47,657 nt of DNA, taken from the NCBI GenBank assembly GCA_025062155.1, contig JANXAM010000019.1, forward strand, positions 1-47,657, read 5' to 3'. A program made the translations under genes and the position numbers. The stretch comes from Gloeomargarita sp. SKYB120 (lineage in GTDB: Bacteria; Cyanobacteriota; Cyanobacteriia; Gloeomargaritales; Gloeomargaritaceae). The notes beneath the pieces were generated by a model, which worked only from the letters and a program-made list of their open reading frames with translations, ran no database searches and was not told where the DNA came from. The stretch's first letter is position 1, and the number at the start of each line of letters is the position of its first letter. Shown piece after piece: positions 10,795-13,356 of this stretch.

Positions 10795-10943
10795 GGTGTC
10801 GCCTCCCTTGCACTGCGCTACTAACAGTTTATACGCATGGTTGTGGTGGTTGGTTGACACCTCCAGAAGGTTGGACTACTTTGAAAGAGTGGCAGTTCCG
10901 GCTGCCGGTACACCTAGTTTTTCAGGAGAACTTATGGATGGGG

Positions 10944-11121
10944 CTGACGGCAGTAGTTACCTGGTAGAGCGGTCTTGCTGGGTAAAACTGTAGTGGTCTC
11001 TACTCCTGCCGTGTTCAGTTTGTGAATTGATGGATTTGCCGCTGGGACTAGGTTCTTAGTGCCCCTAGGTTTATCCGCCATCACCGCTGAGCAGGGCAGG
11101 CTAGACGCAAGCGGTTGATGG
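10944..11121 (+). ncRNA. Candidate structured leader RNA upstream of mgtE (family unknown)
   Basis: No gene was found between 10861 and 11278. Inspection shows nested pairing: CTGA (10944-10947) with TCAG (11015-11018), CGGCAG (10948-10953) with CTGCCG (11006-11011), and inside them GTAGAG (10964-10969) with CTCTAC (10998-11003). Downstream, CCATCACCGCT (11078-11088) can pair with AGCGG (11110-11114) and TGATGG (11116-11121), with one bulged T. CTAGG/CCTAG (11048-11052/11064-11068) form a further stem. The 8-mer TTGATGGA occurs at 11027-11034 and again at 11115-11122, and either copy can pair with the CCATC at 11078-11082. I could not match it to tmRNA, 6S, RNase P, M-box or c-di-AMP riboswitch consensus. 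Confidence 0.4.
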
Positions 11122-11278
11122 AGGTAAGCCATGCCCAAACTGTAATGGTCGTTCCCTCATTATCAGGCTCACCCGACTGAGTGGGTCGCAGGGAGCAGCT
11201 TTCTTTTGCAAATGGCTGATGGCGACGAAGCACTTGTCATCGGCAGTGTCCCACCTGGCTTGGAAGGAAGTAGTCATC

Positions 11279-12655
11279 ATGGCGCGGTATCCCTTGGATG
11301 ATTTACTGGCGTATCCCAAAGCCTTTGGCGCGGCAAAGCGCACAGCCAATCAGTTGGATACGGTGGAACTATTGCGTTTGCTGCGGGAATTGCCACCACG
11401 AAAGCAAATATTGGCCTTTCGGATGCTGGAAAAAGACCGGGCAATTGCCGTGTTTGAGGCATTGACACCAGAGGAACAGGCGGAATTGGTCCATCGGATG
11501 ACCGACCCGGAAATTGCGGCATTTCTGGAAGCCCTGGAACCCGATCAACGGGTGCGGTTATTTGAAGAATTGCCCGCCAAGGTGACGAAGCGATTGCTCC
11601 AGCAATTGAGCGAAGAATCGCGCCGGGCCGTGAATTTGCTCTTGGGTTATCCCGAAAATAGCGTGGGGCGGCGGATGAATCTACGTTATTTGGCCCTACG
11701 AGATCATTTCACAGTAGAACAGGCCATTCAGGCGATTCGCGATTCCGGTTTACCGGATGAAGAACTCAATATCCTGTTCGTGATCGATGCCGAGCGCTTT
11801 TACCAAGGTTTCCTTCGCCCGACGCAGTTGATGAAGGCCGACCCGCAAACCCTAGTTGGTACCCTTGCCCAGGGGCGGGATATCGCCATCACGGTGACAA
11901 TGCCGGAGTTGCTCGCAGCGAAACGCCTCAAGGAACTTGACTTGCCTGCGATTCCGGTCGTGGATAGCGAGGGCCGTTTGGTAGGGGATTTGTGCTTCGA
12001 TGATGTGCTGGATTTGATCGAAGCAGAAGCCACCGGCGCGATGCTGACCAAGGCAGGGGTTGGGAATCTGCTCGAGCGTGACCAGGGCTGGAGTGAACGG
12101 CTGGTGCAGGGACCCATCCGCTACGCCATTCAATTGCGCATTGTTTGCCTAGTCATCACCCTGATCGGGGGGATGCTGGTCGGCGCTGTCGTCCAAACCT
12201 TTGAGGAGGTCTTGGAGGCGGTTGTAGCTGTGGCGGTGTTTATCCCAGTGGTCATGGACATGGGGGGCAATGTGGGCACCCAGTCCACCACCATCTTCGC
12301 GCGAGGGCTGGCGTGGGGGCACATTGATATTCGTCGCTACGGGAGTTACCTGCTGCGGGAGTTGCGCATCGGGGCGGCGATGGGCGCAATTCTTGGGGTA
12401 GCCGCAGGTTTGATTGCCTGGTTATGGCAAGGGATACCTAACGGCGTGCCGCAACTGGGCCTGGCGGTAGGCTTGACCATGTTTATCGTGCTCACGCTGG
12501 CAGCAGTGATAGGAGCGTTCTTGCCTTGGTTGTTATTGAAGCTTGGCTTTGACCATGGCCCGGCCTCCGACCCCTTCGTCACTACCATCAAGGACTTCAC
12601 GGGGTTACTGCTCTACTTCTTGCTGGTGAGTTGGCTGTTGGGTATCCAAGTATGA
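11279..12655 (+). CDS. mgtE: MgtE-family magnesium transporter
   Basis: Homodimeric Mg2+ channel/transporter of the inner membrane, 458 residues. In order: an alpha-superhelical N domain (leucine-rich, LRELPPRKQILAFRML through LLGYPENSVGRRM); two CBS domains (the second with PVVDSEGRLVGDLCFDDVLDLIEAE); a connecting helix; and five hydrophobic segments from about residue 285. The signature VVMDMGGNVGTQS in TM2-3 and the acidic pore-lining residues are present. In known MgtE the cytosolic domains sense Mg2+ and gate the pore. The start is the ATG at 11279 (MARYPLDDLL); an upstream in-frame start at 11219 would add 20 unconserved residues. The ATGA overlap with mgtC makes a magnesium operon. Confidence 0.92.
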   Translation: MARYPLDDLLAYPKAFGAAKRTANQLDTVELLRLLRELPPRKQILAFRMLEKDRAIAVFEALTPEEQAELVHRMTDPEIAAFLEALEPDQRVRLFEELPAKVTKRLLQQLSEESRRAVNLLLGYPENSVGRRMNLRYLALRDHFTVEQAIQAIRDSGLPDEELNILFVIDAERFYQGFLRPTQLMKADPQTLVGTLAQGRDIAITVTMPELLAAKRLKELDLPAIPVVDSEGRLVGDLCFDDVLDLIEAEATGAMLTKAGVGNLLERDQGWSERLVQGPIRYAIQLRIVCLVITLIGGMLVGAVVQTFEEVLEAVVAVAVFIPVVMDMGGNVGTQSTTIFARGLAWGHIDIRRYGSYLLRELRIGAAMGAILGVAAGLIAWLWQGIPNGVPQLGLAVGLTMFIVLTLAAVIGAFLPWLLLKLGFDHGPASDPFVTTIKDFTGLLLYFLLVSWLLGIQV

Positions 12656-13356
12656 CGTTGACCGAGTTCACCATACGCTTGGCGGTGGCCTTTTTGCTGG
12701 GGTCGGCTCTAGGGTTGGAGCGACAATGGCGGCAACGCATGGCGGGCTTGCGCACCAATACCCTGGTGGCGACAGGAGCGGCCCTGTTTGTGATGCTTTC
12801 GGCGTTGATCCCTGGCGATGCCAGTCCTACGCGAATTGCCGCTCAGGTGGTCTCGGGCATCGGGTTCTTGGGCGGGGGCGTGATCCTGCGCGAAGGCTTG
12901 ACCGTGCGGGGGTTAAACACGGCAGCCACTCTCTGGTGCGCCGCAGCGGTGGGGTCCCTAGCCGGTGCGGGACTGCTGTCCCAGGCAACCGTTGGGGCGA
13001 TTGCTGTGCTGATTGCCAATCTCGTCCTGCGACCCCTGGGCCATCGCATCAACCAACAGCCGCTCAAGGGTACCGAGGTAGAGTTGGTCTATCGCTGCGA
13101 AGTGACTTGCCGCGCCGAGAGTGAAGCCCACGTTCGCGCTCTGTTGCTCCAGGCGATGGCGGCGGAGGGCAAACTGCGGTTGCGGTCTCTGGCGAGCGAA
13201 GACCTAGAGGACAAACCCGACCGGGTAAGCGTCGAAGCGGAACTGGTGACCCAGGAGCGCAACGATGGGTTCCTGGAACAGCTCGTGAGTCGTTTAAGTT
13301 TGGAGCCGGGTGTCACCTCCGTTCGCTGGCGCATCACCGAGCAGGAATTTGGCTGA
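12652..13356 (+). CDS. mgtC: MgtC/SapB family membrane protein
   Basis: 234-residue MgtC-family protein. The N-terminal half has four to five hydrophobic segments with the signature GSALGLERQWRQRMAGLRTN, SGIGFLGGGVIL and VRGLNTAATLW. The C-terminal 95 residues form a soluble ACT-like domain (VELVYRCEVTC through VTSVRWRITE). In Salmonella MgtC aids growth at low Mg2+ and modulates the F-ATP synthase rather than carrying Mg2+; the role in cyanobacteria is not established. The ATG at 12652 overlaps the mgtE stop, so it is co-translated with the Mg2+ transporter, which supports a magnesium-homeostasis job. Confidence 0.9.
   Translation: MTLTEFTIRLAVAFLLGSALGLERQWRQRMAGLRTNTLVATGAALFVMLSALIPGDASPTRIAAQVVSGIGFLGGGVILREGLTVRGLNTAATLWCAAAVGSLAGAGLLSQATVGAIAVLIANLVLRPLGHRINQQPLKGTEVELVYRCEVTCRAESEAHVRALLLQAMAAEGKLRLRSLASEDLEDKPDRVSVEAELVTQERNDGFLEQLVSRLSLEPGVTSVRWRITEQEFG

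Follow-up and report, generated by a model that had tools for sequence, protein, structure and literature searches.

A putative translation-controlled leader of magnesium transporter genes in cyanobacteria and its diverged copy upstream of mgtE in a Gloeomargarita-like genome

Comparative analysis indicated that the leader preceding the mgtE and mgtC genes of a Gloeomargarita-like cyanobacterium is probably a diverged member of a cyanobacterial group of translation-controlled attenuators of Mg2+ transporter genes (leader-peptide attenuation). Sequence comparison among relatives established a family of uORFs, two exclusive folds, conservation of the hairpins P1, P2 and P0 and of a hairpin in the uORF head, a characteristic spacing and an association with Mg2+ transporter genes. 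The family, whose copies are scattered over the cyanobacteria, is undescribed in Rfam, Pfam, NCBIfam and the open-access literature searched. Leader-peptide attenuation of Mg2+ transporters is a known kind of control; the family, the peptide, the RNA and the phylum appear to be new.

Organization of the leader and downstream genes

The window, that is, the whole stretch of 47,657 nt that was analysed, comes from a Gloeomargarita-like genome (G000). Judged by mgtE, the closest relative with a name is Gloeomargarita sp. SKYG116 (L033/L004), hereafter the sister genome. The features of the leader and of the genes behind it are as follows.

10854–10882, plus strand: predicted promoter-like site TTGACA-N17-TACTTT, the top-ranking pair of hexamers, lying 51 nt ahead of the uORF start
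10923–10929, plus strand: Shine-Dalgarno-like AGGAGA of the uORF, read from the sequence
10934–10993, plus strand: leader uORF in the form found in the window, MDGADGSSYLVERSCWVKL followed by a stop, with the head M[ED]xxxSS homologous in relatives
10934–11059, plus strand: uORF as read in the sister SKYG116, 41 codons ending in MDLPLGLGS, with the stop 8 nt before P1
10944–11018, plus strand: nested stems over the uORF, matching in position the uORF-head hairpin of the family
11022–11133, plus strand: whole module of region 1, P0, P1, P2 and ATG, aligned to covariance model R3 (model positions 1–103)
11029–11036, plus strand: region 1 (GATGGATT), the first of the two arms that build the alternative fold, pairing with GGTTTATC at 11068–11075
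11044–11064, plus strand: hairpin P0, between regions 1 and 2, holding the stop codon of the full-length uORF
11068–11076, plus strand: region 2 (GGTTTATCC), 5′ arm of P1 and anti-Shine-Dalgarno
11078–11121, plus strand: hairpin P2, enlarged in the window clade to 10–11 bp with a bulge; P2 covaries in relatives
11120–11130, plus strand: region 3 (GGAGGTAAGCC), both the 3′ arm of P1 and the Shine-Dalgarno sequence for the ORF that follows
11131–11145, plus strand: mini-ORF (MPKL and stop) started from region 3; comparable short mini-ORFs occur in many relatives
11147–11207, plus strand: tentative terminator-like hairpin followed by TTTCTTTT (−19.8 kcal/mol, z −1.3)
about 11262, plus strand: Shine-Dalgarno sequence GGAAGGAA of mgtE
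11279–12655, plus strand: mgtE, the putatively controlled gene (PF01769/PF03448; TIGR00400, 326 bits)
12652–13356, plus strand: mgtC/sapB-family gene (PF02308, PF21770), its start overlapping the mgtE stop (ATGA)

The ORF at 10934–10993, the promoter-like site and the relatives described below go beyond an earlier sequence-only reading of this DNA. The promoter-like hexamer pair had a letter-shuffle p of 0.02, and it was absent from the output of a stricter promoter scan. The uORF of the window stops at codon 20 with a TAG (10991–10993), where the sister genome has TGG.

According to the sequence-only reading, two folds compete in a switch-like leader ahead of mgtE and mgtC, and its observations were upheld. 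The 8-mer TTGATGGA is indeed repeated at 11027–11034 and 11115–11122, as seen by direct reading, and CCATC at 11078–11082 can pair with the GATGG of either copy, so that two competing folds are possible. The second stem, at 11078–11121, has the form described (CCATC-A-CCGCT paired with AGCGG-TT-GATGG), with an outward extension of GGTTTA.CC and GG.TAAGCC; the fold of 11066–11132 reached −28.8 kcal/mol (z −3.5), with only 1 of 200 shuffles as good. The nested stems at 10944–11018 do exist (−29 kcal/mol) and lie mostly within the short uORF, but they exceed chance only mildly (z −1.6; 12 of 200 shuffles as good). Their outer arm pair, GGCAGTAGT and ACTCCTGCC, does not recur in L005, the closest other relative, and the stems were rejected as a conserved aptamer on this ground. 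By folding energy alone the entire 351-nt leader is unremarkable (z −1.5), and the hairpin at 11147–11207 was not called by a standard terminator scan.

A repeat matching at 13 of 14 nt, AAACTGTA followed by G or A and then TGGTC, was also observed at 10985–10998 and 11137–11150 of the window. The uORF and the mini-ORF thereby both finish with Lys-Leu-stop and then TGGTC; in the sister genome the first repeat copy reads AAACTGTGGTGGTC.

Search of the window against Rfam 15, which includes the M-box (RF00380), gave no match at or above the gathering threshold, in line with the earlier statement that the leader is not an M-box. Matches to GHRLOS, Prion_pknot, sul1 and isrG, which appeared in the window at permissive thresholds, were regarded as chance only. 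Among the relatives, Rfam matched only group II introns elsewhere in L012.

Identification and distribution of related leaders

In similarity searches the leader was kept as DNA only in the sister genome, with 98% identity, and on DNA similarity of the leader alone the case would have ended as lineage-specific. The motif emerged from side-by-side reading of the upstream regions of mgtE homologues, three of which were used to build covariance model R1. With R1, 23 of 390 cyanobacterial genomes gave matches at E <= 0.05, the last few being chance; the R1 matches L095–L098 and L100 (E 0.0005–0.05) lack such a uORF, are associated with unrelated genes and were treated as chance. A second model, R2, was built on 22 copies and yielded further ones, and R1 and R2 together gave copies of 39–80 bits in about 20 of the 390 genomes.

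A profile HMM of the peptide alone found the element in 28 of 380 cyanobacterial genomes, or 27 after one false positive was dropped (L136, E 0.009, with no such uORF and unrelated genes). It recovered loci missed by the RNA model, in most of which the hairpin was then found at the expected place; an R2-like hairpin lay at the right spot in 8 of 12 loci checked. The new loci (e.g. L124, L130, L132 and L135) have an Mg2+ transporter downstream. Thus the peptide search and the RNA search each recover the other part of the element. The peptide itself has no family in Pfam or NCBIfam.

Most copies of the leader precede mgtE. Twelve precede a gene for an Mg-translocating P-ATPase of the MgtA type (L038, L078, L081–L084, L087, L091, L092, L104, L105 and L130), called by TIGR01524 in L038 (894 bits; cut-off 611), by scanning of a fragment in L078 and by resemblance in the rest; canonical copies before a P-ATPase gene were present in two genomes of the same genus (G001 and G003). 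In G139 a second leader copy (L143) is followed by mgtC. A canonical copy at L085:1–1556 precedes an NRAMP-family gene, perhaps a sign of Mg2+ transport by the NRAMP protein. The copies in L089 and L123 reach contig edges, L101 has only a small mgtE-companion gene behind the leader, and L103 has mgtE fragments.

Several arrangements were observed around individual copies. Genome G149 holds three (L086, L102 and L103), two of them identical before mgtE and the third before degenerate mgtE fragments. In G333 the leader is separated from mgtE by a transposase gene that runs on the opposite strand (L141:2650–3783). Several genomes encode in this interval a small conserved cyanobacterial protein (xxxTCPxARYRG...LHTxGKxS...), found at L037:4132–4459, L034:4723–4981, L043:4673–4907 and L142:1241–1870. 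At L043:3670–3976 the tail of the element (MNLPLLALL and stop, with P1 and P2) is fused behind a truncated P-type ATPase start upstream of mgtE, the uORF head being missing; this fusion suggests that the module moves by recombination.

Outside the cyanobacteria, serine-rich acidic uORF-like frames (MEDVSSPSSSSEDASSPS... and MDAESSSPSSDTTDNS...) were noticed upstream of mgtE in two Chloroflexi, at L039:4706–4825 and L040:3666–3776, the latter between mgtC and mgtE. Neither is matched by the cyanobacterial peptide profile, and the peptide HMM found nothing in 201 genomes of Chloroflexota, the phylum of L039.

Conserved uORF and promoter-like site

In about 25 of 31 loci a TTGACA-led, sigma-70-like site (of the form TTGACA-N16-18-TAnnnT) stands 51–95 nt ahead of the uORF, and an AGGAG-like site precedes the uORF in most relatives. 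The uORF is canonically 36–58 codons long, with the consensus MEASGSSxxxATxQExxxSDEDPxPxxxxGxxxIxLMNLPxxxLx and a mean column identity of 39%. It is under coding constraint: among 18 pair comparisons, dN was lower than dS in all 17 pairs with dS > 0 (ratios mostly 0.2–0.7, one near 0.9), and no indel breaks the frame in the compared pairs.

The uORF head, at about codons 4–15, also forms a hairpin that covaries, with 81.7% of cells paired as against 39–50% when slid, and 13 double-changed cells versus 7.5 in shuffles. Serine codons 5–9 are AGT or AGC in 76 of 77 cases, compared with 37 of 128 elsewhere, a bias which the covarying hairpin can explain.

Of 34 uORFs outside the window clade, 29 have an acidic/proline cluster at codons 13–36, whereas shuffling gave 9.9 on average and 19 at most; in L092 the cluster reads EESEPEPEP. 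Those without such a cluster are the window, the sister and L005, and also L007, L086, L106, L107 and L135. In 16 of 31 loci, 7–8 nt separate the uORF stop from P1 behind it; with a footprint of the usual size, a ribosome at this stop would extend just as far as P1.

Two mutually exclusive folds

Region 1 corresponds to the MNLP codons of the uORF (GATGAATCTGCC). Its partner is region 2 (GGTTCATCTCC), and the helix of the two encloses P0, where the uORF stop lies. Region 2 can alternatively pair with region 3 (GGAGATGAACC) to form P1 around P2, and the two folds are mutually exclusive. In 22 sequences 95.7% of the P1/P2 cells were paired, compared with 36–53% when slid, and 18 cells were double-changed versus 6.0 in shuffles (0 of 500). 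The helix of regions 1 and 2 was significant (p < 0.05) in 17 of 31 loci, at a mostly constant offset; its pairs are mostly invariant, so that covariation there is thin, and several loci (L086, L090, L094, L103, L106, L107 and L005) have no good helix of this kind. The mean z was −1.9 for the alternative fold and −3.4 for P1/P2. With homologous folds covarying in relatives, and with the downstream gene identified as MgtE (TIGR00400), the two-fold leader proposed in the sequence-only reading was supported; the observations it had named beforehand as speaking against it turned out otherwise, since covariation is present, the predicted promoter (10854–10882) lies upstream and Rfam is silent.

Region 3 is a Shine-Dalgarno sequence. 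Most loci have a start codon behind it, which usually belongs to a mini-ORF (such as MKDFT or MNKFQSTS, each with its stop), and in L005 region 3 is directly the RBS of mgtE; in a few loci (e.g. L080, L088–L090 and L093) the motif has no ATG. Termination was considered as the output: terminator-like hairpins with T-runs are enriched downstream (43 versus 13 in one letter shuffle), yet their position is not conserved.

The window copy as a probable diverged member

A third covariance model, R3, comprising 103 positions, was built without any sequence of the window clade. It aligned end to end at the right place in the window with a low score of 15.9 bits, equivalent to an E value of 0.0014 when 601 nt are searched and of 0.33 for 141 kb; R2 alone did not report the window copy at E <= 2. 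Regions 1 and 2 of the window form a helix of 8 bp whose offset matches that of canonical relatives; taken alone, this helix is not significant (p 0.38). The uORF head M[ED]xxxSS is present; owing to the TAG, the stop is 74 nt from P1, versus a gap of 8 in the sister (L004), whose uORF tail carries MDLP where the family has MNLP. At 11120–11133, GGAGGTAAGCC-ATG makes up an RBS with its start codon 0–5 nt on and aligns with the mgtE RBS of L005. From the R3 alignment, the canonical offset of region 1, the sister gap of 8 and the RBS-ATG aligned to L005, we conclude that the window leader probably belongs to the cyanobacterial Mg-transporter leader family as a diverged, peripheral member. With its acidic/proline motif lost and its uORF cut short by the TAG, the window copy is a poor place to study the mechanism, although it was the starting point from which the family was recognised; these changes, if real, predict weakened or constitutive (ON-leaning) control.

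Proposed mechanism

In the proposed mechanism a ribosome would translate the short uORF. When Mg2+ is replete, the ribosome at the uORF stop would mask region 1 and P0, and its front would stand where P1 begins. With region 1 masked, regions 2 and 3 would pair as P1 and hide the Shine-Dalgarno sequence of the next ORF, either the mini-ORF or, in L005, mgtE itself, and expression would be off. In low Mg2+ the ribosome would be lost or stalled at the acidic/proline motif (SDEDPDP, about codons 19–29) and region 1 would stay free to pair with region 2 around P0, thereby releasing region 3 and turning expression on. The motif usually ends 23–58 nt upstream of region 1, outside the ribosome footprint; as this holds in nearly all loci, an aborted or stalled ribosome would leave region 1 free. 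We infer Mg2+ as the signal, ribosome destabilisation as the sensor, the direction of the switch and a relay from the mini-ORF over 130–1000 nt to the transporter gene.

Precedents exist in enterobacteria. Ribosome drop-off at EPDP of MgtL in low Mg2+ turns mgtA on (PMC11282234), and the acidic uORF mgtQ controls the mgtB RBS, which is freed through competition between stems (PMC8092293). As a counterpoint, shifting the motif by 20 residues diminished an EttA-linked acidic effect in E. coli (PMC11282234), and the cyanobacterial motif lies at codons 19–29.

Alternative explanations

The sequence-only reading had inferred an Mg2+-sensing or other leader RNA. A direct riboswitch would bind Mg2+ and switch without a ribosome, either through the entire leader or through P1/P2, whose loop is CUGGGCA; this would fit the Mg2+ transporter genes downstream, the two exclusive folds and the P2 loop residues (UGGGCA) conserved in many copies. 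However, P1/P2 consists of two helices in a simple 55-nt hairpin and lacks a large conserved core, the loop is not retained in L088–L090, L093 and the window, and neither the M-box nor any other Rfam family matches. The hairpin is conserved together with a uORF under coding constraint and with the spacing of the uORF stop, and a translated-looking uORF ending 7–8 nt before it in half the family makes the ribosome translating the leader peptide, judged from these sequences, a more likely sensor than the RNA itself. We consider a direct riboswitch unsupported and improbable. Amino-acid attenuation, in which stalling at Ser, Cys or Pro codons reports charged tRNA rather than Mg2+, seems hardly more probable. 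The well-kept head SSS(C) with its AGT/AGC codons would agree with it, as would the sensing of proline by Salmonella mgtP (PMC3641672), but the covarying head hairpin can account for the codon bias, serine or cysteine supply has no evident tie to Mg2+ transporters, and the best-kept mid-peptide feature is the acidic/proline cluster.

That the uORF products act in trans as small proteins (e.g. on the transporter), the hairpin merely setting their expression, is very unlikely. The coding constraint and the length of 36–58 residues are compatible with it; the stop position is tied to the hairpin, region 1 lies inside the coding sequence, overall peptide conservation is low, and mgtP provides a precedent for action in cis (PMC3641672). 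A different question is whether the leader is a decaying relic in the window genome, with mgtE left constitutive by the codon-20 TAG and the missing motif. The TAG against TGG in the sister, the absence of the acidic/proline motif throughout the window clade, the low model score and the shortened P1 all point this way. Against this, P2 is lengthened rather than lost, the pairings of regions 1:2 and 2:3 and the RBS-ATG are retained, the leader is 98% identical in two genomes, L005 also lacks the motif yet retains uORF, P1 and RBS, and the TAG may be an assembly base error. For this copy decay is, on balance, the less likely reading.

Comparison with known systems and significance

Translational attenuators of the ermC type resemble the attenuator proposed here in that the position of the leader ribosome decides which hairpin hides the RBS; they differ in having an antibiotic inducer, with induction following stalling. 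The enterobacterial mgtA leader, mgtL, likewise has a short acidic/proline uORF before an Mg2+ transporter gene and competing folds set by ribosome progress, and is ON in low Mg2+, as would be expected here. Its peptide is unrelated, with 17 codons and the motif at codons 2–5, whereas the cyanobacterial uORF canonically has 36–58 codons and the motif at codons 19–29. The output of mgtL is Rho access, whereas RBS sequestration is predicted for the cyanobacterial leader; the Rho RNA-binding domain (PF07497) had no match in G000 or 12 relatives, with controls matched in 9 of 14. In Salmonella, mgtQ, in the mgtC-mgtB intergenic region, shares an acidic uORF and stem competition freeing or hiding an RBS, but it has 8 codons, lies between genes and releases the RBS when region 1 is occupied, whereas completion of the cyanobacterial uORF is predicted to close it. 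The tandem attenuators mgtM and mgtP of Salmonella mgtCBR also place two short ORFs in one Mg2+ operon leader; their signals are ATP and charged proline-tRNA, and we saw no sequence resemblance to the cyanobacterial leader. The M-box (ykoK), including the M. tuberculosis (Mtb) pe20 M-box with a uORF (PMC12810186), shares the position in an Mg2+ gene leader and a translational platform on a small ORF. The cyanobacterial leader differs in having no aptamer match, and its sensor would be upstream translation.

It is possible, and we propose it only tentatively, that cyanobacteria, independently of enterobacteria, evolved a leader peptide that senses Mg2+ through destabilisation of the ribosome at acidic/proline codons and needs no Rho. 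This sensor would be a portable module, used in front of Mg2+ transport genes from at least three families unrelated to one another. Cyanobacteria need much magnesium for chlorophyll and ribosomes; to our knowledge, how they sense and import it is poorly known, and no RNA-level control of cyanobacterial mgtE or mgtA appeared in the literature searched. A peptide-plus-RNA element common to unrelated Mg2+ transporters would offer a handle on the cyanobacterial Mg2+ regulon, and a second, independent test of the ribosome as an Mg2+ sensor outside enterobacteria. If the proposal is true, ribosome instability would be a recurrent natural Mg2+ sensor in bacteria.
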